Source: a virus. From it: a stretch of 27,864 nucleotides of DNA. The stretch lies in IMG/VR virus record IMGVR_UViG_3300044819_000017, positions 1 to 27,864 of that record. One strand, 5' to 3'. Below are positions 3,793-14,090 of this stretch, piece after piece. Every line of letters starts with the position of its first letter. Within the stretch, counting starts at the first letter, position 1. The notes under the pieces were generated by a model, which was not told the origin of the DNA, did no database searches, and saw only the letters and a list, made by a program, of their open reading frames with translations. The position numbers were made by a program, and so were the translations under genes.

Positions 3793-4193
3793 TAGCCCAT
3801 CCCCGACGGCGCGGCCTGCTGTGTATCGATGCTGCCTGCGAGTGCCTGAATGAAACCGGCCCCATACTGCACATAAGGCTCGACCAGTTTCACGACGTAG
3901 TTATCACCCCGCCACGTCACCACGTCCGGCTTAAAGCCGGGCGACGGTCCCTGCAAACGAAACTTCGTCACGATGGAAATAGTACGACTCGAGTTATCCC
4001 CTTCCGGCAGCCGGTCCAGGTCGTTTGGGCTCGCCATTGTCACGACGCCGATCTTGCCGGGGATGACCTGTGGCACCGGCACCGTGGACTCGCCAAAGCT
4101 ATTCACCACCTCCGGCGAGCGCGTGACGTCAAACGTATCCGCAAAGTCTGGATCGACCAAGACCTCGGATACGTCAAGGAAGGGCTTGCCCAT
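3792..4193 (-). CDS. Neck/tail-completion protein, 133 aa, family uncertain
   Basis: The start ATG overlaps the stop of the HxHxH-tagged upstream gene (TGATG), and its TAA overlaps the next start, so it is translationally coupled on both sides. The protein (MGKPFLDVSEVLVDPDFADT) looks beta-rich, with TISIVTKFRLQG, WRGDNYVVKLVEPYVQYGAG and a C-terminal Gln/Ala stretch. Short proteins of this kind (130-170 aa) between gp10-like and neck terminator genes are head-tail joining or tail completion proteins. The phrase W-x-G-D-x-Y-V-V is common in such proteins. The specific family cannot be fixed from the sequence alone. Confidence 0.65.
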   Translation of the reverse strand: MGKPFLDVSEVLVDPDFADTFDVTRSPEVVNSFGESTVPVPQVIPGKIGVVTMASPNDLDRLPEGDNSSRTISIVTKFRLQGPSPGFKPDVVTWRGDNYVVKLVEPYVQYGAGFIQALAGSIDTQQAAPSGMG

Positions 4194-4432
4194 CAGAAGT
4201 CAGTCTTTAGACGAAAAAACCGTTTGATCTGCTCAAAATCAGCAGACCGTGATATCTGCTGGCCACGTTCACGTACTGCATAGTGGCCAGCAAAAATCCC
4301 GGTCCCTTTAATCAACGTGTAACCACCCTTCGTCTCGTAGACATCCCCTTCAATTTCCGTCGGGTAAGCCGAGGTCAACCACGGTTTGCTGCGACCTGCA
4401 TCATGCAAGTGGATGTGGATGTGTTTACTCAC
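4193..4432 (-). CDS. HxHxH-tagged small protein, 79 aa
   Basis: The protein starts at GTG (4432), which overlaps the upstream stop as GTGA, and reads MSKHIHIHLHDAGRS. The rest contains GGYTLIKGTGIFAGHYAVRE and ends FEQIKRFFRLKTDF, a compact alpha/beta pattern. I do not recognise the family. What stands out is the alternating-His N terminus, nearly identical to that of the genes ending at 4959 and 6005 and similar to that of the gene at 12153-12542. The bodies of these proteins are different. A role in the virion is suggested by the location among neck genes, but this is inference. Alternating His would suit a beta-strand with all imidazoles on one face and could bind metal. Confidence 0.7.
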   Translation of the reverse strand: MSKHIHIHLHDAGRSKPWLTSAYPTEIEGDVYETKGGYTLIKGTGIFAGHYAVRERGQQISRSADFEQIKRFFRLKTDF

Positions 4433-4962
4433 CGAAACCGCCCCTTACCACGACGCACCACATAGGTAATCGACCGCAGCATTTGGGCCGTATCAATCAA
4501 GGGCGTGGTATCCGACGCGCTCGTGGCCTTGCGGCGATACTTGCTGCCCTTGGAGCGGCGGCGACGTGCGGCCACCGTGCTCGCGGCCAGGGGCGGCGGT
4601 ATGCCCTGCCGAATGTGCATTTGAGCGGCGCTGGCGGCTGCCTGCCCTGCGGCACTGAAGGCCCGCAGCATGCGGGCAGGGTCGGAGGCCAGGACTGCCT
4701 CGCCTGCCTGCCGGAAGTAGTTTTCGATCTTGCCCTTGGCGGCCACGATGCCGGGCGCAAGGAATGGGCGGGCGGGGATGTTTGCCGCCGGGCTGCCGTT
4801 TTCGTGCACGTAGCCCAGTTCGGCATTGCTCATCGGGTCGCCGTCTTTGCGCTGCGCCTTGTCCGCAGGGATGCCGACGAGGACGTCGTAGTCCGTCAGG
4901 CGCAGCATGTCCGCCACGAGCTTGCGTGTATTGTCCTTCGTGATGGACATGCCGGACTTCAT
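4429..4962 (-). CDS. Head-tail/tail completion protein (HK97 gp10-like), 177 aa
   Basis: I choose the ATG at 4962, which overlaps the previous TGA as ATGA, over an upstream in-frame ATG at 4995. The protein contains VLVGIPADKAQRKDG, NAELGYVHENGSPAANI and PARPFLAPGI. The G-x-P...N-A-x-L-G-x-x-x-E-N-G and P-x-R-P-F-L motifs are typical of gp10-like neck/tail proteins. The C-terminal half is very basic (AARRRRSKGSKYRRK) and ends with TPLIDTAQMLRSITYVVR, the D-T-G/A-x-L-R-x-S-I pattern of the family. The role would be to join head and tail. The short frame around 4493-5113 on the same strand is a shadow. Confidence 0.78.
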   Translation of the reverse strand: MKSGMSITKDNTRKLVADMLRLTDYDVLVGIPADKAQRKDGDPMSNAELGYVHENGSPAANIPARPFLAPGIVAAKGKIENYFRQAGEAVLASDPARMLRAFSAAGQAAASAAQMHIRQGIPPPLAASTVAARRRRSKGSKYRRKATSASDTTPLIDTAQMLRSITYVVRRGKGRFR

Positions 4963-6005
4963 TTTGTGTAGATCGACCCCTTGTCGCCGCCCCACTCACC
5001 CACATGCTTGCCGTCCGCGCCAATGGCAGCCGCGATATCTTTGTCGCCCTCGAAGCGCGTCGCCCCGGCAGCCTTGGCCGCAGCACGCCACGCCGAATAT
5101 GTTTGATACTCACGCTCGCCCAGGTGATTCAAGGCGTCTTTGCGCAGGCACTTCGCGCAGCCGCAGTCCCGCACGCGGTCGCCAGTGCCCCCCACCAGCT
5201 CGTTGATTATCTTTTTGGCCTCTTCGAGGCTGTGCGCCGTCCCGATGTTCGCGCCGCCCTTTTTGATGTAGAAGTCCTGCCGGTTGAATATCGAATTGGT
5301 GATGAGGTATCCCTTGAATGCGACTTGCGTGTAGGTGGTGTCCACGGACCGCATTTGCGCACGATCCCACCGGCCAATCACCTTTCCGTTCCGATACGCG
5401 ACCATCATGTAGCCCTGGCCGCGCCGAATATCCAAGGGGTACGGATCGGACATCCGCATCATGCGGACTTCCCACTCAGCATAGGACGACGTGGCGTCCC
5501 GCGCACCCATACGGCGCTTCGCCGCCAGCATCTGCTTCGCGGCAAGGTGTACCGCTTTGCTGGCGAACATCGTTTTACCGGCAGTTTCCTTGATGAGGTC
5601 CTCAAGCTCCGACGGCCCCATGCGCAGCATGTTTAGGCCACGCGCTGCGGCGTTGAGGTCCGATTGGTCCGGTTCACGCTCGGCGTCCCGGCGACGGCTG
5701 TCATAGCCCATGCGCGTATTTTCGTTTTTAATCCAGGCCTCAGCTTCACCGCGTGTTTTCCACGGAGCCCGACCAATGCCGATCGTGTTCCTTTGCTCGT
5801 TATAAACGGTAAAGCCGGTGTTGATTTTTTCCCAGTTAGCCTTGTCCTCCGAACTAGTCCAAGGCACAGCCCCATAAATAGATGCACCGGCCCCAGTCTT
5901 CTTGTTACGCCACATCTTGGACTCGACTACTGACCAAGGAGACTCCCGATCAACAGCGCGGTGACGCTTCCGATCATGCAGATGAACGTGAATGTGTTTG
6001 GTCAT
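4959..6005 (-). CDS. HxHxH-tagged 348-aa protein, unknown function
   Basis: The start ATG shares one base with the stop of the upstream tagged gene (TAATG). It begins MTKHIHVHLHDRKRH. Two stretches look like copies of one small domain: about residues 60-100 (INTGFTVYNEQRN, then EAEAWIKNE) and about 225-270 (FKGYLITNSIF, then FYIKKGGANIGTAHSLEEA). The C-terminal part has DCGCAKC, a likely Zn-binding pair of Cys, and an Ala-rich helix. The middle is rich in Met and Arg. There is no signal peptide or membrane segment. I do not recognise a family. Position between connector and neck genes suggests a virion or morphogenesis role. Confidence 0.75.
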   Translation of the reverse strand: MTKHIHVHLHDRKRHRAVDRESPWSVVESKMWRNKKTGAGASIYGAVPWTSSEDKANWEKINTGFTVYNEQRNTIGIGRAPWKTRGEAEAWIKNENTRMGYDSRRRDAEREPDQSDLNAAARGLNMLRMGPSELEDLIKETAGKTMFASKAVHLAAKQMLAAKRRMGARDATSSYAEWEVRMMRMSDPYPLDIRRGQGYMMVAYRNGKVIGRWDRAQMRSVDTTYTQVAFKGYLITNSIFNRQDFYIKKGGANIGTAHSLEEAKKIINELVGGTGDRVRDCGCAKCLRKDALNHLGEREYQTYSAWRAAAKAAGATRFEGDKDIAAAIGADGKHVGEWGGDKGSIYTK

Positions 6006-6202
6006 TAGCGGAGGTAAATCATCAAACCGTCGATGTCAGCTTTCGCCATTTGAAGCTGGTTGCGCGCCCCTTGAATATCCCGCCCGGCGAGCGCAGCAGC
6101 TTGACGCAATTTGGGGATCACGTTGTTTGAGATCCCAGCGACCAGATTTTTGACATCATCCGGCTTTGCATCACTTAAATGAATGTGAATGTGTTTACTC
6201 AT
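6005..6202 (-). CDS. HxHxH-tagged small protein, 65 aa
   Basis: It begins MSKHIHIHLSDAKPDD and continues as a predicted helical protein (VAGISNNVIPKLRQAAALAG, then IQGARNQLQMAKADIDGLMI). It ends one base into the next start. The N-terminal 12 residues match those of the 79-aa and 348-aa neighbours almost exactly, while the rest is unrelated. The gene starts 4 nt from the stop of the DUF4054-like gene, so all are in one transcript. Function unknown. The small size and helical body fit an accessory or assembly factor that is addressed by its tag; this is inference. Confidence 0.7.
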   Translation of the reverse strand: MSKHIHIHLSDAKPDDVKNLVAGISNNVIPKLRQAAALAGRDIQGARNQLQMAKADIDGLMIYLR

Positions 6203-6206
6203 CGCG

Positions 6207-6707
6207 TCACCCGCTCATGTTGGGATAATTTGCATACCACGGACCCGGCCACGCACCGCCACCGCTAAAGGGCGGCGCGCAGCCGAGGCCTACCTGTATC
6301 GGCCCCGCACCAAAAGCATTGAGCAGCCGGATGAAGCGCAGCCCATAAACGGTGAGGTTCCAATGCCCCGCGCCAGGCTCCGAAGACGCCCCGGTATCGA
6401 AGCCGATGGATACCTTGTCGACGGACTTGTTGTTGACCGGACCCTCGGCCACCCCCGGCACGCCGCCGTTGTTAGCGGAGGCAATAGCCTTCGCTTCGAG
6501 GACAAGCTGATGCGCGGCATAGAGCTCCTGTCCGTAATCAAACTCCGTGCGGACGTTATTGCCGCCCGCGCCCGGCACACCCCACCGGTCCTGATTGAGG
6601 AACAGCGCGGCGAACGCGAGCCAATACGTGATCATCGGCACCGGATAGACCGACGCGTCCCCAAACTCGGGGAAGTCGGCTACAAAGTCGGCGGCGGCGA
6701 TTCCCAC
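6207..6707 (-). CDS. Head-tail adaptor (DUF4054-like), 166 aa
   Basis: The product begins GIAAADFVADFPEFGDASVY, with the F-x-x-x-F-P-E-F pattern of head-tail adaptor proteins, then YWLAFAALFLNQDRWG and ELYAAHQLVLEAKA, both typical of DUF4054. The later part SVDKVSIGFDTG and YGLRFIRLLNAFGAGPIQVG also fits. The first possible start in this frame is GTG at 6707, with GGATG upstream. The length is close to the family norm. It lies downstream of the capsid genes, the position where connector subunits are encoded. It probably forms a ring under the portal. Confidence 0.82.
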   Translation of the reverse strand: MGIAAADFVADFPEFGDASVYPVPMITYWLAFAALFLNQDRWGVPGAGGNNVRTEFDYGQELYAAHQLVLEAKAIASANNGGVPGVAEGPVNNKSVDKVSIGFDTGASSEPGAGHWNLTVYGLRFIRLLNAFGAGPIQVGLGCAPPFSGGGAWPGPWYANYPNMSG

Positions 6708-6723
6708 CCAGGCATCCGGTGAA

Positions 6724-7380
6724 TTACTTCTTCACCGCTGCGGCGGCAGCTTCCGCACGCTTGGCCTCGGCTACGGCAGCGTCGGCGACCTTCTTCATGC
6801 GGTCGGCTTCCGCCTGCGCCTTGGCCGCGACCGCGTTCAGGTCGATCACCCGGACGCCCATTGCCACCGCAAACCAATGCTCGGCCACGACGGACGGCAC
6901 CTGCGAAATGCCTTTGGGGATGACGTTCACGACGCCGTGCGCCAGGGTGACGTTCACCGCCTTGGGCGAATCGACCATGACGAGCGACGCATTGGCAAGG
7001 GCGAGCTCGGCGGCAGCCTTGGCACCGGCAGCGGCACCGGCGGCACTGATGCGGTGCTCCTCCTGCGCCTTGCGCTCGGCATCCTGCGCGGCCCGGACAG
7101 CGTCCTCGGCGTTTTTCTTGGCGGTGGCCACCTTGCGCACCGACTCCTCGGCGTCCTGCTTTGCCTTGGCCTCGGCTTCCTGCCGGGCTTTCGCTTCGGC
7201 GTCGGCAAGGGCTTGCGCCTCCTGCTCTGCGCGGGCCTTGGCTTCGGCTTCCGCCTTGGCCGGATCGACGGCAGGCTTTTCGTCCACCTTGCCGCGCCGC
7301 TGGATGGTCTTGGCGTCGGCACCACCGGCGGCCTGCTCCCCGTCGGCCTGCTGCATGTAAATCCGTTTCATGGTTTTCAT
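6724..7380 (-). CDS. Coiled-coil, alanine/lysine-rich virion-module protein, 218 aa
   Basis: Residues about 40-125 are a long charged coiled coil with repeated AEAKA/QEAEAKAKQ units, TolA-like in composition. Residues about 140-185 contain a compact segment, VNVTLAHGVVNVIPKGISQV then EHWFAVAMGVRVI; this V-I-P-x-G-x-x-x-V...H-W-F pattern is seen in small proteins that follow the DUF2184 capsid gene in other phages. A second Ala/Lys-rich helix ends the protein. AGGAG precedes the ATG. The gene comes just after a terminator, with no room for a normal promoter. The repeats explain the many shadow frames on the other strand. Function in virion assembly is inferred. Confidence 0.75.
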   Translation of the reverse strand: MKTMKRIYMQQADGEQAAGGADAKTIQRRGKVDEKPAVDPAKAEAEAKARAEQEAQALADAEAKARQEAEAKAKQDAEESVRKVATAKKNAEDAVRAAQDAERKAQEEHRISAAGAAAGAKAAAELALANASLVMVDSPKAVNVTLAHGVVNVIPKGISQVPSVVAEHWFAVAMGVRVIDLNAVAAKAQAEADRMKKVADAAVAEAKRAEAAAAAVKK

Positions 7381-7404
7381 CCTGCGCTCCTATTCAGGTC
7401 ATTG

Positions 7405-7440
7405 AAACAAAAACGGCCCGGAAGATAATCCTCCGGGCCG
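7405..7440 (-). terminator. Intrinsic terminator after the major capsid gene
   Basis: On the minus strand there is a perfect 9-bp GC-rich stem (CGGCCCGGA with TCCGGGCCG, arms 7432-7440 and 7414-7422) with a 9-nt loop, followed by TTTTTGTTTC. It lies 31 nt after the stop of the capsid gene and 25 nt before the start of the next gene. This is the clearest terminator in the window. Because the downstream gene follows at once, it probably reduces, rather than blocks, transcription into the tail genes. Confidence 0.9.
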
Positions 7441-7471
7441 CGCCTTTTCGCCCGGCGACCTGCGGCGGCTC

Positions 7472-8614
7472 TTACAGCCCGTCGAAGTAGCCCAGGGTGT
7501 CGGGATACACGACCTCGACTACGCCCAGCTTCTGGTAGTAGGTCGTTTTCTGCCAGATGCTGTCGTACTGCAACGGCGTCCGGCCCATCTCGGTCATCGG
7601 GAAGCGCACCCGGTCCTTGTCGCGGGTATAGACCACCATGCGGTCGTGGCCATTCACCGTGCCGACCGTGCCGCCCGCGCCTGCGCCGATGCACCACTTC
7701 AGCGGCTCGATCTCGAGCTGCCCGCCGCCCTTGGTCGTGGTGACGTTGTTGTCGAGGATGTATTTCAGCACCGAGACGTTCCCGGCGAGGCTCACCTTCT
7801 GCGTGCTGATCTGGCCGAACTGCGTCGGCGGAATCAGGATGCGGGTGGGCAGCACCGCCCATGCACTGTTCTGCCATACGGTGGTCAGCGCCGCATTGAC
7901 GTCGGCCAAGATCTCGTCCGGCGTCTTGTTGGCCCACAGCGGCGAGCCCACCGCACCGGCGGGCAGGTTGGTCACCGACACCCCGGCGTTGTTCACCAGG
8001 CCGGTCACGTTCAGGGAGGTGTCCCCGATGTAGACCTGCTCGTCGATGTCCATCTGGTTTTTCAGCTTCAGGGCATCGAACTTCTGCTGGTCGATGGGGC
8101 GGCCCGTCTTGGCGGCGCTCTCGAGTTCGAGCAGCGTGAAGGCGATCTCGTTCATCCAGATCGTCAGCGGGTTGGTCAGCTTGGCGATGTCGATGCCGAC
8201 CGTCGCGACCTGGTCCGTTTTCTTGCCCGCCCAGGACTTGCCGTTCCCGATGCCGTTGCCTGCGCCCAAGCCACCCTGCGAAGCGAAGGTGCTCAGCGTG
8301 AAGCTGGAAACCTCGTCCGCAAGCGTAACGTCGGTGCGTAGATCGATGTCCCGTTGCCAGGACACCTGCACCAACGGCGCGTGCATGGTCGGGTCGAGGC
8401 GCTCGAGCTCCCCGATCAGGAACGCGCCGGTGCTATCTACCGTGCGCCCGTCGTGGGTCTGAAACGCGCCCGGCAGACGGCGACCGAGGTGGTTGCCTGC
8501 GCCGTCGTAGGTCATGGCACCGCCTGCGCGGTCGAAGGTCATCCCGGTGTCCCGGAAGGACCGGCGAACTCCCCGCACCAACGGGCGCTGTGCGAGCATT
8601 TGGTTGTGTTTCAT
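7472..8614 (-). CDS. Major capsid protein (DUF2184-like), 380 aa
   Basis: The protein carries patterns of the DUF2184 capsid family: FLIGELERLDPTMHAPL near residue 65, the TWxRDID-like VSWQRDIDLRTDV, VGIDIAKLTNPL, and LKLKNQMDIDEQVYIGD. The C-terminal part has YTRDKDRVRFPMTEMGRTPL and a closing VVEVVYPDTLGYFDG. The length is typical. GAGAGAGG lies upstream of the ATG at 8614. It follows the protease/scaffold and cement genes, as in related phages, and ends at a strong terminator, consistent with high expression. It would build the icosahedral head with an HK97-type fold. Confidence 0.92.
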   Translation of the reverse strand: MKHNQMLAQRPLVRGVRRSFRDTGMTFDRAGGAMTYDGAGNHLGRRLPGAFQTHDGRTVDSTGAFLIGELERLDPTMHAPLVQVSWQRDIDLRTDVTLADEVSSFTLSTFASQGGLGAGNGIGNGKSWAGKKTDQVATVGIDIAKLTNPLTIWMNEIAFTLLELESAAKTGRPIDQQKFDALKLKNQMDIDEQVYIGDTSLNVTGLVNNAGVSVTNLPAGAVGSPLWANKTPDEILADVNAALTTVWQNSAWAVLPTRILIPPTQFGQISTQKVSLAGNVSVLKYILDNNVTTTKGGGQLEIEPLKWCIGAGAGGTVGTVNGHDRMVVYTRDKDRVRFPMTEMGRTPLQYDSIWQKTTYYQKLGVVEVVYPDTLGYFDGL

Positions 8615-8672
8615 GGCTGTATGCCTCTCTCGTTGATGTGGGGTATGCGTTACCGTTGCGCGCCGTCGATGC

Positions 8673-9299
8673 TTAGACGTTCACGCAAATTTCGACGTTG
8701 CCCGCTGCGTCCGGCGGGCCGCCGAATTGGTAGCGAGGTCCGAGCTTGGTCGTATTGCCCGCGCTCGCCGCCGACGTGATCTGGCCTTGCACGTGCGCGC
8801 CTGCGGTGGCCGCGCACCAGACGAACACCGGGTCGCCCTTGGCAGGCGCGGCGTCACCGGCTGGCAGCACCGCCATGATGTAGCCCATGCGCAGAACATC
8901 GATCACGCCCGCTACCGGCGGCGTGCCGCTGCCGAAGTTCGAGGTCATGCCGCCCGCGTTTTGCTGCGCCGGGAAGGGACGCACCGTAAAGCCCCAGGGG
9001 TCGGAGGCGGTGACGTCGGACTGGTCGGCGACGCCATAGGGCCGGACGCCGACGTTGGCTGCACCCTGAAGGACCGGCTGCCCGTAAAACAGAGGCGGCG
9101 AAACGGCGTCGATCAGGTTGGCCTCGACGTTCAGCGGGTGGAAGCGCGAGGGGTCGCCCGCGATACCGGCGTTCATCCGGAAGGGGATGGACGTCTGGTT
9201 GTTATCGCGGAACCGCATCCGGCCACGCGGAGTGCGCGGGCGGTTGTCCCGCTTGCCGAACAGGGCACCGATCATGGCTGCCAAAATGGTCTTTTTCAT
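8673..9299 (-). CDS. Capsid cement/decoration-like structural protein, 208 aa
   Basis: It sits between the protease/scaffold gene and the major capsid gene, which is the place of the structural cement protein in DUF2213/DUF2184 phages. The N terminus MKKTILAAMIGALFGKRD is hydrophobic then basic, but the hydrophobic part is short and there is no clear cleavage site. The rest is beta- and Gly/Pro-rich, with VLRMGYIMAVLPAGDAAPAK and DPVFVWCAATAGAHVQGQ, a pattern seen in cement proteins (repeated P-x-K-G-x-x-V-x-V). AGGAG precedes the ATG. It probably coats or stabilises the head. Confidence 0.75.
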   Translation of the reverse strand: MKKTILAAMIGALFGKRDNRPRTPRGRMRFRDNNQTSIPFRMNAGIAGDPSRFHPLNVEANLIDAVSPPLFYGQPVLQGAANVGVRPYGVADQSDVTASDPWGFTVRPFPAQQNAGGMTSNFGSGTPPVAGVIDVLRMGYIMAVLPAGDAAPAKGDPVFVWCAATAGAHVQGQITSAASAGNTTKLGPRYQFGGPPDAAGNVEICVNV

Positions 9300-9339
9300 T
9301 GCGTTCTCCTTGCGTGGATGTGGGGTAGATGCGTCCGGG

Positions 9340-10776
9340 TTACGCGGCCTTGCGCTTCTTCCGCGCTTCCTCGTTCATCTTCTGGATGTCGGCGGTGGTA
9401 ACGCGGGCACCCTGCGTGCCACCGTCGTGCGCGGCAAGGCGACGCTCGCCCTGGTTCCCTTGGCGGTTCTGCTGCTTCTTCAGCGCGCCGACCGCGTTGA
9501 ACAGGGTGCGCACATCGGAAGCGCGCATGCCGTCGAGGACAAGCCGCTTGCCATGCACCAGCTCGATCAGGGCGCGGCCCTCGCCGGTGTTGTTGGCGAG
9601 TTCCAGGGCCGTGCGGCGCAAGCCGCAAATGGCGTCGTAGGTCTTTTTCGGCGCGGCGTTGCGCTCGTACTGCGGAATGCTGATGCCTGGCACCAGGATC
9701 TCGGCGACGGCACCGGCGCTCTGAAGCGAGTCGCCCAGGTACACGCTGTCGCGGGCCTTGCGCGCCTTGTCGCCGGTCCCCTGCGGGGCTTCCTCGGCCA
9801 GCGCGCCCTCGAGTTCCTCGGTCGCCTCGGCATCGGCTTCGCCGCTGTAGCCGACTTTCGCGGCAATGGCGTCGACGGTCTTGCCCAGTTTTTCCAGGGT
9901 GTCGCCGATCTTTTTGAAGCCGCCGGTAATTTCTTCGTCGGTCATCTTGACCGCGCCAATGGCCGAGCCTGCGTCATTGGGGTCGTCGCTGTTGCCGATG
10001 GTGCCGCCCTCGTCGTGATGCACGTGGACGTGGGTGTGCTCATCGCCACCCTCGCCCGCAGGCATCGCGGCCTCGGCGTCTTCCATTTCCTGCTCGGCGG
10101 CCTTGATCTCGGCCTCGTCCTTGGACTTGACCGCTTTGACCAGCCGGTCCTTGGCCTTCATGAGGCGGTCCATCCAGCTCGGACGTCCGTCGCGAGTACG
10201 CATACGCATGGCAGCATCTCCTGTTGATTGTTGCGAATGTTTTCGGTCGCCAATGGAGCAGCGCGGGCCACAACGACCGGCGTCGACCAGCGCGACATGG
10301 TTGCCAATGAGGTTCACCTGCTCGCCCTCACCGGGATGGATCTCGTTGTAGTCGGCGTCGTAACCGCAGGACACTTCCCGCTTGCCTGCCCGGACGTCCG
10401 CAATGGCATCGCGGTCAGTGATGATCATGTCCGCAATCAGGAGGTCCGCTTGCAGGCCGGTGCCCCGGCGCGGATTCATCACGGTGCCAACAGTCAGCGT
10501 GCGCCAATTGTCCGGGTTGACGTCCTCGTCCGGATGGTCGTTCACCACCGGCTTGCCGTGGTAGCTGCTGACGTGCTCGGGCTTGAAAACCTCGGCCTCG
10601 TCGCGGGCCACCTTGACGATGCCCTTGGCATCGCCAGGCAGCCCGATCTCGGTCGTGTGGTACTCCTGCATCCCGATCCGCGCAATCGGCACGTCCGAAA
10701 TGACAAGGAAACCCTCAGGCGTGAGCGCCTGCTTGTCGCCTAGCTTTTCGGTTACGTGGAAACGCGAACGGGACAT
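9340..10776 (-). CDS. Head maturation protease/scaffold fusion (DUF2213-like), 478 aa
   Basis: Residues 1-170 form a DUF2213-like protease domain: LTPEGFLVISDVPIARIGMQ, VSSYHGKPVVNDHP, REVSCGYDADYNEIHPGEG and NLIGNHVALVDAGRCG. H of the NDHP and S of VSCGY motifs are likely catalytic. Residues about 200-330 are acidic, helical, scaffold-like. In that part is EHTHVHVHHDEGG, an internal alternating-His stretch like the N-terminal tags of four other genes. The C-terminal half has SAGAVAEILVPGISIPQYER and ends in a basic tail. It would cleave scaffold and capsid N termini during head assembly. The start ATG at 10776 has only a weak ribosome binding site. Confidence 0.85.
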   Translation of the reverse strand: MSRSRFHVTEKLGDKQALTPEGFLVISDVPIARIGMQEYHTTEIGLPGDAKGIVKVARDEAEVFKPEHVSSYHGKPVVNDHPDEDVNPDNWRTLTVGTVMNPRRGTGLQADLLIADMIITDRDAIADVRAGKREVSCGYDADYNEIHPGEGEQVNLIGNHVALVDAGRCGPRCSIGDRKHSQQSTGDAAMRMRTRDGRPSWMDRLMKAKDRLVKAVKSKDEAEIKAAEQEMEDAEAAMPAGEGGDEHTHVHVHHDEGGTIGNSDDPNDAGSAIGAVKMTDEEITGGFKKIGDTLEKLGKTVDAIAAKVGYSGEADAEATEELEGALAEEAPQGTGDKARKARDSVYLGDSLQSAGAVAEILVPGISIPQYERNAAPKKTYDAICGLRRTALELANNTGEGRALIELVHGKRLVLDGMRASDVRTLFNAVGALKKQQNRQGNQGERRLAAHDGGTQGARVTTADIQKMNEEARKKRKAA

Positions 10777-10788
10777 GGCGGATGCTCG

Positions 10789-11271
10789 TTACTGTACGGA
10801 GCAGCCGACGGTGCCGGTAACGGTCGGCGTCGAGCTGCCACCCACCGTGATCGATACGCGCCACTTGGCGGCAATGGGGATGCCCGCGCCGACGTTGGCC
10901 GTGGTCGCAACACCGGCACCGGCGGAAATTGCCGAGGCAGTCAAGCCAGTGGTCACCGCCGAGTTGGTGATCAGGTCGTAGTAAAGGCCGCTGACCGCGT
11001 CCTTGTTTTGGATCTTGAAGGTAGTCGACGGCGACCCGGTGAAGGTCGACTGCGCGAACGCGCATACCACCCGGCTCACGTTGAAGCCCACCTGATCCGA
11101 GCTGGTGACCGTGCCCGCACCCTGCGCGGTCATGACCTTCAGCGCGCCGAGGTCCCGCGTTACCGGGCCATAAACGGTGACCGCCTGCGGGACACCTTGG
11201 GCGAATACGACTGCGGGGACTGCGAAAGCCGCTGCAAGCAGCAGGCTGGCGACGCGGCGGGCAAAGTTCAT
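10789..11271 (-). CDS. Exported beta-rich protein with signal peptide, 160 aa
   Basis: I choose the ATG at 11271, preceded by GGAGG at good spacing, rather than a start 72 bases upstream. The protein begins MNFARRVASLLLAAAFAVPA, with a likely cleavage after VVFA. The mature part is beta-rich and small-residue-rich, with GLYYDLITNSAVTTG and AAKWRVSITVGGSSTP, ending in VTGTVGCSVQ. It resembles the 143-aa exported protein at 20064-20495 in its YYDL-x and WRV-x-x patterns. It lies between the minor head and protease genes. A virion decoration protein would not need a signal peptide, so export to the periplasm or surface seems more likely. No family recognised. Confidence 0.75.
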   Translation of the reverse strand: MNFARRVASLLLAAAFAVPAVVFAQGVPQAVTVYGPVTRDLGALKVMTAQGAGTVTSSDQVGFNVSRVVCAFAQSTFTGSPSTTFKIQNKDAVSGLYYDLITNSAVTTGLTASAISAGAGVATTANVGAGIPIAAKWRVSITVGGSSTPTVTGTVGCSVQ

Positions 11272-11360
11272 TGTGGTGCCTCCGAGATTGATTTTGGGTT
11301 TCATTTGCAGCCCAAAGGATACGGAGACCAGCCACGGAAACAATCAGGTGTTAGCGATTC

Positions 11361-12152
11361 TTACACCCGGTCAGGAAGGACAGGCTCCGGGAAGCACCGA
11401 CAATTGTATATAGCGCCAGGGTGCGAACGCTCACCGTTCTCACCCGCAATCGGCGGCGCATCCCACCGGTGAAACGTGCCCTCGAGCTTTTTGTGCTCAA
11501 GACGTACGTCGGCGTCCATTGCGGTACGCCAGATGTATCCCTCGCTGCCTATGTGCAGCGCACGTGCCTGCGTCAAGGCAGAGGTGGTGCGTCCTGTTTC
11601 GGTGCGGGCGATGAGCATTGCGTGCGATTCGGATACCTGCCCCGACCGCATGATCTCTTTCGCCACTTCCTTTGCGCGGGTGCCGTCTACCAGCGCTTCG
11701 GTGGTGAGCTTGTGTACGCGGCGGCCTGCGACCGTCGGGATGCTGGTAATAAGCACCACCTGCTCATCCAACAACGCCTTCATGACCGAGCCCGTCGGCG
11801 CGGTCGCGATCTCCTGCCGCAGCAGGCGGCCCATCTCTTTCCCGACCTCACCCCAGGCGTTTGCGTCCCGCTTTGCTACCTCTGCCGCCATGCTTTCAGC
11901 AGTCGCCCGTGCCCAGGGTTTCAGCAGGTCCGCGTATTTGTCTAGCGCCGCCTGGATGGGGCGCGGGTCTTTGACGACCCCCTTGGGTGCCATGCCCCGG
12001 ACGATGACGCCCACCTGCTTGGCGACCTGCCGCAGCTTGCGTCCGTATGCGATCTCGGCCTTGCGTGCCCGGTGGAAGCGACGGCGGGCGGCCTGTCGCT
12101 GCTGCTGCTGCGTGGGGACGGGCCTAGCGCGAGGCGTGGGCTTTACTGCCAC
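11361..12152 (-). CDS. Minor head protein, Mu F-like (SPP1 gp7-like), 263 aa
   Basis: The C-terminal half is a clear Phage_Mu_F domain: LIARTETGRTTSALTQARAL, GYIWRTAMDADVRLEHKKLE, FHRWDAPPIAGENG and HPGAIYNCRCFPEPVL. The R-T-E-x-x-R, D-x-R-x-x-H-x-x-L and H-P-x-x-x-x-N-C-R-C motifs are diagnostic. The N-terminal 100 residues are basic and helical. The start is GTG at 12152, directly after the upstream TAA, with GAAGGG before it. It follows the portal gene after one small gene. It is a minor capsid protein with a role in head assembly or DNA ejection. Confidence 0.9.
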   Translation of the reverse strand: MAVKPTPRARPVPTQQQQRQAARRRFHRARKAEIAYGRKLRQVAKQVGVIVRGMAPKGVVKDPRPIQAALDKYADLLKPWARATAESMAAEVAKRDANAWGEVGKEMGRLLRQEIATAPTGSVMKALLDEQVVLITSIPTVAGRRVHKLTTEALVDGTRAKEVAKEIMRSGQVSESHAMLIARTETGRTTSALTQARALHIGSEGYIWRTAMDADVRLEHKKLEGTFHRWDAPPIAGENGERSHPGAIYNCRCFPEPVLPDRV

Positions 12153-12542
12153 TTACTTGCCCTTCTGCGCGGCTGCCATTTCCTTGTGAAGCTTTTTGAG
12201 GTCCTCGCGCATGGAGTCCGGCACCGTGCGGCCCTGGTCCTCGAGCGCCTCCATCTTCCTGACGAGCGCATCCCGCTTGGCGAGGAGCTCGTTGTAGCTG
12301 GCGTCGCCGGTGCTTGGCCGCAGCCATGCAAGGAACTCGATGAAGCCGTCGGACTCCTCGAGTTTTTTCGCACCCGCTTCCAAGGCGGCAGCGGTCGGGA
12401 AAAATTTCTCCTTAACTTGCATCGACCCGGCCCGGCCCACTGCGACGCGGTAGCGCACGCCATACTCACTGCTGCCGTCTCGCATCGCCACAGTCTTACC
12501 CGCCCGGATTGCCGGAACGTGGATATGGATATGTTGTGCCAT
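12153..12542 (-). CDS. HxHxH-tagged protein next to portal, 129 aa
   Basis: Starts 3 nt after the portal stop with AAGGAG upstream. It begins MAQHIHIHVPAIRAGK, the fourth and most divergent copy of the alternating-His N terminus. The rest has a small beta-rich part (YGVRYRVAVGRAGSMQVKEK) followed by helices with FIEFLAWLRPSTGDA and a Lys-rich C terminus. It contains no signal peptide. The body does not resemble the other tagged proteins clearly. It lies between portal and minor head genes, so a capsid-associated role is likely but not proven. Confidence 0.75.
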   Translation of the reverse strand: MAQHIHIHVPAIRAGKTVAMRDGSSEYGVRYRVAVGRAGSMQVKEKFFPTAAALEAGAKKLEESDGFIEFLAWLRPSTGDASYNELLAKRDALVRKMEALEDQGRTVPDSMREDLKKLHKEMAAAQKGK

Positions 12543-12545
12543 TGG

Positions 12546-14090
12546 TCACTCCTTGTCGGGCTTGTCCCGTTTCTTGAGCGGGGCTTTTTCCCCGCCAGGT
12601 GCGATGCCCTCTTTGGCCTCGCCTGCCGCTGTGCCGAGCGCCTCGCCGCCCACAGCGCCCATTGCGTTTTCGCCAGCAGGCGGCAGCGACTCCTCGGCAT
12701 CATCGATCTCATCATTGGTAATGCTGCTGAACCGTCCCGTGATGCGGGACAGCTTCTTCAGTTCCTTCATGGCGGTCTGCTGCGAGATCAACCCGGACTC
12801 TTCCGCCGCGCCGATGGTACGTCCATCGCGCTCAGCGATCTCGGACTGCTCCACTTCCGTCAATTGCCACAGCGACCGGAATTCGGTTTTGAATCCGTCC
12901 GGCAATGCGATACCCTCGCTGCGGGCCACAGTACGATAAATGAGGGTTACGCCCGGCCCTAGCTCGGCCTTTTGGTCCTTTTTGACACCGTCATAGTACG
13001 TGCGCAGGTCCGAGTCGCCGGTGCTGTTCAAGCCCGCCGGGGACTGCCCTAGCAGGCGCACAAGGGGTATTTGCAGCGCCCCGGCAATCTGCTGACCGAA
13101 CTGAAGCAGCATGTCGGACAGGCCGCTAAAGGTCGTGTTCTGCATGGCCTCCATTTCATCCTCGCCGTCCAGGAGCGTGATGCCCTCCTGCCCGGCCATG
13201 CGCCGCATCATGTCGACCTGCTTGACGAGGCCTTGGTATGCCTTGCCGCCCTGACCGATGATCTGGCGCAGCCCTTTGATCTTGTACGTGCGCAGCCATG
13301 CCTTATAGACGAGCTGCGCCGCGCCGGTGCTCGTGCTGTCATACGCGATCATCCGGTCATACAGGCGCTCGAGGACGCTGATGCCCCACAGGTTTTCGAG
13401 CAACCGTTGCTGGTACGGCAGGTTGATACCGACAAGCCGGATGCAGCGGCTGTGGTGTATTTTGATGTTTGGCATCGCCGGGCCGCCTGCATTGATGCGG
13501 TAGAACTTCGGCAGCCCCAGGTCCGGCCCCGGTTCGATGACGAGGTTATCCAAGGACGGATCGACCATCCACCGGTCAAGGACAAGCAGCCCCTTGAAGT
13601 CGCCCTTGCCCACCGCCTCCAAGCGGAAGGGCGTCGAGTAGTCGTGCCCGTCGATCATCATGACCGCCAGCGAACCACCATACAGCCGCGACCACTGAAT
13701 CGTTTCCTTGAGGGACTTCCAAATGCGCAGGGTAGTGACAGCCTCCTCAATTTGTTCCGCATGCTCGGGCGTGATCTCGCCTAGCAGGTTGACACCCTCA
13801 CGCGTCATGTCCTCGGCCTTGACGTCGACCGCGATGCCGCCTAGCCAGCTTCCCCGGTGTATCCACTCGAGTAATATCCGAATGCGGCTGATTGGGTTGA
13901 AGCCATAGGTCGATGTCGTCATGGCGTTGTCCGCGCCAATGCCAAGCATCTGCTGGAAATTTACGAACGAGTCCTCAGTCTTTTTGAGGCGCGCTGCGTC
14001 CTGGGCCTTGCGCAGCTTGCGGTCGACGGCGAGCGCGGTGCGGGCTGCGCCTGCGACGCTGACGTTCCGCTTGACGAGAGGCTTGGTCAT
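12546..14090 (-). CDS. Portal protein (DUF1073-like), 514 aa
   Basis: The ATG overlaps the upstream TGA as ATGA. Family patterns are visible: RGSWLGGIAVDVKAEDMTRE at about 80-100, WSRLYGGSLAVMMIDG at about 145, VLDRWMVDP, FYRINAGG, HHSRCIRLVGINLPYQQR, WGISVLERLYDRMIAYD and IPLVRLLGQSPAGLNSTGDS, with TYYDGVKKDQ after it. These are characteristic of DUF1073 portals. The C terminus is acidic with a Gly/Ala-rich, then Lys-rich tail (LKKRDKPDKE). The portal dodecamer is the DNA entry/exit ring of the head and binds terminase. The gene is intact. Confidence 0.92.
   Translation of the reverse strand: MTKPLVKRNVSVAGAARTALAVDRKLRKAQDAARLKKTEDSFVNFQQMLGIGADNAMTTSTYGFNPISRIRILLEWIHRGSWLGGIAVDVKAEDMTREGVNLLGEITPEHAEQIEEAVTTLRIWKSLKETIQWSRLYGGSLAVMMIDGHDYSTPFRLEAVGKGDFKGLLVLDRWMVDPSLDNLVIEPGPDLGLPKFYRINAGGPAMPNIKIHHSRCIRLVGINLPYQQRLLENLWGISVLERLYDRMIAYDSTSTGAAQLVYKAWLRTYKIKGLRQIIGQGGKAYQGLVKQVDMMRRMAGQEGITLLDGEDEMEAMQNTTFSGLSDMLLQFGQQIAGALQIPLVRLLGQSPAGLNSTGDSDLRTYYDGVKKDQKAELGPGVTLIYRTVARSEGIALPDGFKTEFRSLWQLTEVEQSEIAERDGRTIGAAEESGLISQQTAMKELKKLSRITGRFSSITNDEIDDAEESLPPAGENAMGAVGGEALGTAAGEAKEGIAPGGEKAPLKKRDKPDKE

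Follow-up and report, generated by a model that had tools for sequence, protein, structure and literature searches.

An alternating-histidine N-terminal strand as a putative capsid-targeting sequence in phages with a DUF2213 scaffold

The proteins that phages carry in their heads and inject are mostly unknown, and they have been found protein by protein by mass spectrometry. In T4, a capsid-targeting sequence (CTS) is carried by the internal proteins IPI-IPIII and by Alt and is removed by the prohead protease gp21; no more than the first 10 residues of IPIII are required, residues 4 and 7 acting in targeting and residues 8 and 10 in processing, with a gp21 site at LIE-9, and the cargo include an anti-restriction protein and the ejected ADP-ribosyltransferase Alt (PMC9026906). 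In P1, a foreign protein can be directed into the head by the N-terminal 30 residues of DarB alone (PMC9024508). For the system of gp245 of SPN3US (phiKZ-like), N-terminal propeptides are reported to be removed from many head and ejection proteins at a motif that these proteins share (PMC10052503), and polyvalent proteins with LPD domains are proposed to be packaged and injected (PMC5512222). Here we analysed a 27.9-kb virus record (IMG/VR record IMGVR_UViG_3300044819_000017, positions 1 to 27,864; the whole stretch is called the window), in which four different proteins begin with the same alternating-histidine strand (the tag) and a similar strand is found inside the DUF2213 protease/scaffold. 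The tag is probably a cleavable capsid-targeting sequence, for which the scaffold's own strand would serve as the address.

The tagged genes and the scaffold strand of the window

All four of the open reading frames (ORFs) for which the initial annotation had claimed a common alternating-His start were present at their coordinates, and all lie on the minus strand, which that annotation had left unstated. Their products start with MSKHIHIHLHDA, MTKHIHVHLHDR, MSKHIHIHLSDA and MAQHIHIHVPAI (4193-4432, 4959-6005, 6005-6202 and 12153-12542, respectively). The first nine residues of all four fit M-x-[KQ]-H-[IV]-H-[IV]-H-[LV] and the remainder is divergent, in agreement with the earlier description. 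The third-position codon differences noted before (CAC/CAT, ATC/ATT) were also seen, and Leu is encoded by TTG, CTG or TTA as well, so it is the peptide and not the DNA that has been kept. When H.H.H runs were searched in six frames of the window, the four tags, the internal site of DUF2213 and two matches in other frames were obtained, and none besides. The features concerned are as follows (a slash marks a putative cut).

4193-4432, minus strand: tagged gene 1, 79 aa, GTG start; tag MSKHIHIHLHD; possible cleavage D11/A12; body without a family match
4959-6005, minus strand: tagged gene 2, 348 aa; tag MTKHIHVHLHD; D11 is followed by R, which gives no good cleavage site
6005-6202, minus strand: tagged gene 3, 65 aa; tag MSKHIHIHLSD; possible cleavage D11/A12
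12153-12542, minus strand: tagged gene 4, 129 aa; tag MAQHIHIHV; possible cleavage VAMRD22/G23; sits between the portal and MuF genes
9340-10776, minus strand: DUF2213 head maturation protease and scaffold, 478 aa; Pfam PF09979 with E 3e-52; PHROG head maturation protease
10015-10038, minus strand: scaffold His strand HTHVHVHH (EHTHVHVHHDEGG), residues 247-254, in loop 241-278, which is predicted to be disordered; proposed as the counterpart of the tags on the cargo

Tagged genes 3 and 2 overlap via TAATG. Against Pfam and PHROG, the four tagged proteins of the window gave only weak, chance-level matches, such as Toxin_ToxA with E 0.03 on the 79-aa protein; for tagged gene 3, a weak match to phrog_36554 spans the tag region. 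Among phage records resembling the cargo of the window, a weak match was obtained for the 348-aa protein, residues 26-125 of which weakly resemble hypothetical proteins from jumbo phages of Brevundimonas, and chance matches only for the 65-aa protein.

The DUF2213 protein passed the curated cut-off of PF09979 (177 bits vs 22). Its AlphaFold2 model, with a predicted local distance difference test (pLDDT) score of 82, consists of a beta-rich protease domain (about residues 1-175), a disordered loop by a TRD/G sequence, a helix, the disordered loop 241-278 and further helices. The His motif that had been placed inside its scaffold-like part is at 10015-10038 on the minus strand. In 45 H-type DUF2213 proteins, a set partly chosen by the His motif, D343-S344 and H249/H251/H253 vary little or not at all, within a scaffold that is otherwise gappy.

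The shared start might instead be a relic of gene-end recombination or duplication, or serve translation initiation, without any function of the peptide. The frequent adjacency of tagged genes would fit tandem duplication, but the residues are kept while the codons diverge, the bodies are unrelated folds, and the scaffold gene has its strand internally, far from the start codon; we therefore regard this origin as very improbable.

Co-occurrence of the tag and the scaffold strand

With the exact pattern ATG-x-AAR-CAY-RTH-CAY-RTH-CAY-NT, 39 stretches were obtained from IMG/VR. Most of the matches are genes with a plausible Shine-Dalgarno sequence, and many of these share the longer consensus MAKHIHIHLG.RKT[KR]DA, followed by unrelated sequence. 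A looser DNA scan revealed further tagged genes amid many spurious short ORFs. Dozens of otherwise unrelated phage proteins begin with the tag, with one to four tagged genes per locus outside the window, and tagged genes are often adjacent (4959-6202 in the window; L018, L283 and L311). The initial annotation had suggested a motif search, and the tag starts found in this way do cluster with DUF2213, which is encoded by 23 of the 41 contigs found by the tag alone (16 of 19 among those of at least 20 kb) against 2 of 49 control contigs, both of which (L008, L064) bear tag-like ORFs classed as doubtful.

For a direct comparison of tag and scaffold, 160 loci were collected by DUF2213 similarity (80 prophage loci and 80 viral contigs), together with five further viral loci and annotated phages. 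The scaffold halves of DUF2213 divide into those with and those without a THφHφH strand (φ, aliphatic or aromatic). Tagged genes were found in 27 of 59 strand-positive loci and in 0 of 93 strand-negative ones; the labels for ZHS and BgManors32 were assigned manually on the basis of their annotated genes, and four loci missed initially by the DUF2213 pattern all have the strand, as read by eye. Counted as distinct matches across all sense-strand open frames, HφHφH in strand-positive loci was N-terminal in 40 cases, inside DUF2213 in 39 and elsewhere in 3. When loci were clustered by their protease domain at 90, 70 and 55% identity, the tagged fractions were 24/51 v 0/65, 18/37 v 0/39 and 6/11 v 0/10, respectively (Fisher's test, 5e-11, 1e-7 and 0.012), and the association also held in viral contigs alone (6e-5) and in prophages alone (0.007). 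In these sequences the rule is one-way: tags occur only where the strand is present, and the strand is not always accompanied by a tag. Several SEN34-like DUF2213 scaffolds (L167, L170, L220-L225) have GVNLNINLSPQQPLP or a variant in place of the His strand.

Could short ORFs simply happen to start with alternating His, or owe their appearance to ascertainment? Many raw DNA matches of the loose pattern are indeed spurious short ORFs. However, tag-pattern ORF starts across the DUF2213 loci numbered 46 on the sense strand v 11 on the antisense strand, HφHφH was absent from all 975,423 residues of the strand-negative loci, and a control scan with ATG of the exact pattern permuted to GTA gave no tag-like genes. 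This explanation is already largely refuted, and we give it almost no weight.

A metal-binding module was also considered, in which the alternating His would form a Zn or Ni site for metal-dependent clustering or folding, with no address role. The keeping of His, rather than other strand formers, at three alternating scaffold positions (partly a matter of selection bias) and in nearly all tags agrees with such a module; its near-exclusive N-terminal place (40 v 3), its confinement to genomes that have the scaffold strand and the cleavage-like site after the tag are not predicted by it, and it is unlikely in our judgement. Metal binding could be the chemistry of the address or contact rather than a rival to it.

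According to the capsid-targeting model, the tag strand (H at about positions 4, 6 and 8) would bring the cargo into the DUF2213 scaffold core during head assembly, with the scaffold showing its matching THφHφH strand in a flexible loop. As the first choice, the contact would be inter-chain beta pairing, strand to strand, with a metal possibly bridging the His side chains; as the second choice, both strands would dock on one common partner, where a metal is possible too. The DUF2213 protease would cut after D in T-x-D/small and so trim the scaffold, the leaders of the capsid, portal and decoration proteins, and the tag. The released cargo would remain in the head and enter the host along with the DNA.

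The second choice amounts to a common receptor, namely a third partner (capsid protein, portal or metal cluster) on which scaffold strand and tag both dock, and the tag would still be a packaging signal. It predicts identical co-occurrence, and the scaffold strand lies in a disordered loop of the monomer model, as for a docking peptide. On the other hand, no matching conserved receptor feature was found, and the capsid N-arms of strand-positive phages were seen by eye both with and without the long insert. We consider a common receptor possible, though with clearly less confidence than a capsid-targeting sequence addressed to the scaffold strand.

At the level of sequence, support for this capsid-targeting sequence comes from the tag and the scaffold strand, from their co-occurrence in one direction, from the common TxD motif and from the recognisable cargo, which resemble effectors; from these we infer packaging, cleavage, physical contact and injection. 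The chances are evenly balanced that these features make up a head-loading code readable from sequence, in which a His-striped scaffold strand and its N-terminal copy on the cargo would lead to co-assembly and the scaffold's protease would free both.

Cleavage motif, head proteins and cargo

A [TAV]xD[AGST] motif was found within 18 residues after the tag in 43 of 67 distinct proteins, compared with 6% of downstream windows, and TxD[AGST] in 30 of 67 compared with 3%. The tags of the window match less well, with LHD/A, LSD/A and AMRD/G (LHD/R was not counted). The [LI]-x-E specificity of gp21 of T4 does not fit the tags, the sites of which end in D, mostly as T-x-D. In annotated DUF2213 phages, T-x-D-small recurs at the ends of capsid and decoration leaders, at portal N termini and in the scaffold. 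Among 82 distinct capsid proteins, all 61 leadered ones have xD at most 8 residues from the conserved core (T-x-D in 54), with Arg at P2 in 44 and mostly G, S, N or A at P1', and the 21 leaderless ones begin at the boundary where the leadered ones have xD. When an early [TA]xD[AGST] was sought in genes preceded by a Shine-Dalgarno sequence, with no condition on His, the matches, read by eye, were for the most part genes for capsid, portal, decoration and DUF2213 proteins; tagged genes were also among them, and these were in strand-positive loci only. The cultured strand-positive phages include Burkholderia phage BgManors32, Edwardsiella phage vB_EpM_ZHS (ZHS) and Phage WC36-2; in ZHS the predicted cuts are ATQD15/T16 in the tagged protein ZHS_5 and the position after RARTRD in the capsid protein. 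In open-licence literature, with subscription papers outside the search, we found nothing on the cleavage motif in work on DUF2213 and, for HIHIH in phages, no paper describing the tag.

The head cassette of the window lies on the minus strand in the order portal, tagged gene 4, MuF, DUF2213, decoration-like protein, major capsid protein, DUF4054, tagged genes 3 and 2, neck protein and tagged gene 1. Candidate sites of the same kind are present in its head proteins.

12546-14090, minus strand: portal protein; PF06381 with E 2e-97
13968-13979, minus strand: putative portal cleavage site T38-E-D40/S41, which precedes a conserved F-x-NF; TxD/S stands at the equivalent place in several portals
10186-10197, minus strand: putative DUF2213 self-cleavage site T194-R-D196/G197, in the loop after the protease domain
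9745-9756, minus strand: putative DUF2213 self-cleavage site A341-R-D343/S344; D-S nearly invariant in the 45 proteins
9201-9212, minus strand: putative cleavage site F30-R-D32/N33 in the decoration-like protein 8673-9299, from by-eye alignment with leaderless homologues
7472-8614, minus strand: major capsid protein; PF09950 with E 1e-79
8546-8557, minus strand: putative capsid-protein cleavage site F20-R-D22/T23; in relatives, 61/61 leadered proteins have xD here and 21 leaderless ones begin here

Between MuF and DUF2213, the protein of 10789-11343 (minus strand) has a signal-peptide-like N terminus (LLLAAAFAVPAVVFAQ). The decoration and capsid leaders of ZHS (L155:7864-9695; compare 8673-9299 of the window) resemble hydrophobic signal peptides (MKKTVLATAVLALAAASAG...) ahead of the TRD site. 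In Burkholderia cenocepacia, a transposon sequencing (Tn-seq) study classed DUF2213 as essential and as a domain of unknown function (PMC8770471); given the phage-head context seen here, this essentiality is possibly a prophage effect.

Published capsid models were compared with the predicted sites. The T1 capsid protein gp47 was modelled from residue 27 (PMC11945409), and its sequence reads VKQD26/A27, so the model begins directly past this junction. The capsid proteins of E217 and Pa193 were modelled from residue 66 (PMC10329688, PMC11042391); the relative phiKTN6 has AMD64/S65, and the two models begin one residue past D64/S65. In phiKTN6 (L172, Pbunavirus), AMD/S is repeated in the capsid (64/65), portal (36/37) and DUF2213 proteins, which suggests that P3 is Ala rather than Thr in this lineage. 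For Agrobacterium phage 7-7-1, in which the capsid protein is reported to be cut at A164, no capsid gene was recognised in the stretch analysed.

When 72 tagged proteins were scanned, few family matches were obtained at E <= 0.001, and most of these are effector-like: LPD3 (three), topoisomerase IB (two), GNAT (two), an ADP-ribosyltransferase (E 1e-24) and Acb1 (E 5e-19). PHROG adds an ADP-ribosyltransferase exoenzyme, an Alt-like RNA polymerase ADP-ribosyltransferase and ParB-like families. The recognisable cargo are plausible injected effectors, including Acb1, which acts against the cyclic oligonucleotide-based antiphage signaling system (CBASS); the tagged Acb1-like protein retains two HxT motifs. 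This protein (L016:7999-8496, minus strand) adjoins a second tagged protein (L016:7412-7978, minus strand) with a weak ParB-nuclease-like match, and Acb1 might be pre-loaded in the virion of that phage. Behind the tag there is often another module, [WF]xExxHPRxxxGKFGSGxG (L155:2727-3068, L005, L016, L020, L029, L304 and L327), and this module is also present in the C-terminal part of some portals (L157, L159; phage PhiXhv-5). The family phrog_30637, matched by seven of the tagged proteins, may correspond to it.

The initial annotation had proposed an address tag of the T4 CTS kind that leads to prohead, scaffold or neck. Unrelated folds behind the tag, its limitation to strand-bearing loci, T-x-D/small after it and effector-like cargo all argue for prohead or scaffold; for the neck we found no support.

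Several observations weigh against a capsid-targeting role. Tag and strand are both clustered by lineage on the tree, and a tree-based independent-pairs test had too few supported pairs, with no contrary case among them. In 12 strand-positive, tag-negative contigs (some of 53-72 kb) no M-x-x-HφHφ start was found, other spacings not being searched there, and no matching N-type tagged cargo was found in SEN34-like phages with the NLNINL scaffold strand. No family match was obtained for most tagged proteins, the four of the window among them, and of these four tags one has D/R and another has its site only at residue 22. A Foldseek search of PDB with the full-length DUF2213 model (E <= 0.001) matched no solved structure, so its identification as a protease depends on gene context and on the annotation in PHROG. 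The capsid evidence from T1 and E217 concerns ordered density and could reflect disorder, and the authors of the E217 work gave cleavage as one of two possibilities (PMC10329688); the comparison with T1 and E217 covers the capsid junction and not the His strand. We found no virion proteomics on any of the tagged proteins.

Relation to known packaging signals

If the proposed role is true, any gene with the strand in such a phage would encode an injected protein, and the tag would become a search key for counter-defence effectors. A sequence-readable tag, its scaffold partner motif and the usual cut site would list injected effectors straight from genomes; here such a list would hold an anti-CBASS enzyme, an ADP-ribosyltransferase, topoisomerases and many families without known function. 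DUF2213 phages would gain a CTS with a presumed receptor, the protease family, which in Pfam still counts as one of unknown function, would gain a substrate motif, and there would be a means of placing reporter proteins of choice inside phage heads.

Among the known systems, polyvalent proteins resemble the tagged cargo in that LPD3 and ADP-ribosyltransferase-type domains recur; no packaging tag turned up for them in the available part of the source (PMC5512222), whereas here mostly small proteins are tagged. The SPN3US motif likewise has an acidic P1 residue and a preference for a small P1', but most SPN3US propeptides are 111-254 residues long, and the accessible text describes no shared short strand address (PMC10052503). 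P1 DarB also has an N-terminal packaging signal, and the P1 cargo are anti-restriction proteins; its authors report no consensus among Dar N termini (PMC9024508), whereas the consensus of the tag is strict over many phages.

Like the T4 CTS, the tag is a short N-terminal peptide on unlike proteins of one phage, here with its strand at residues 4-8, and it is followed by a cleavage motif of the phage's own protease, here usually within 18 residues and predicted from sequence. In contrast to T4, for which the part of the source at hand describes no alternating-His strand (PMC9026906), the proposed cut is after Asp (T-x-D) and not after Glu, the scaffold bears a recognisable copy of the address strand, and the protease/scaffold belongs to a different family (DUF2213). 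Thus, the tag is by its sequence not a member of the T4 CTS family, since strand and Asp specificity differ, and by analogy it appears to work like one.

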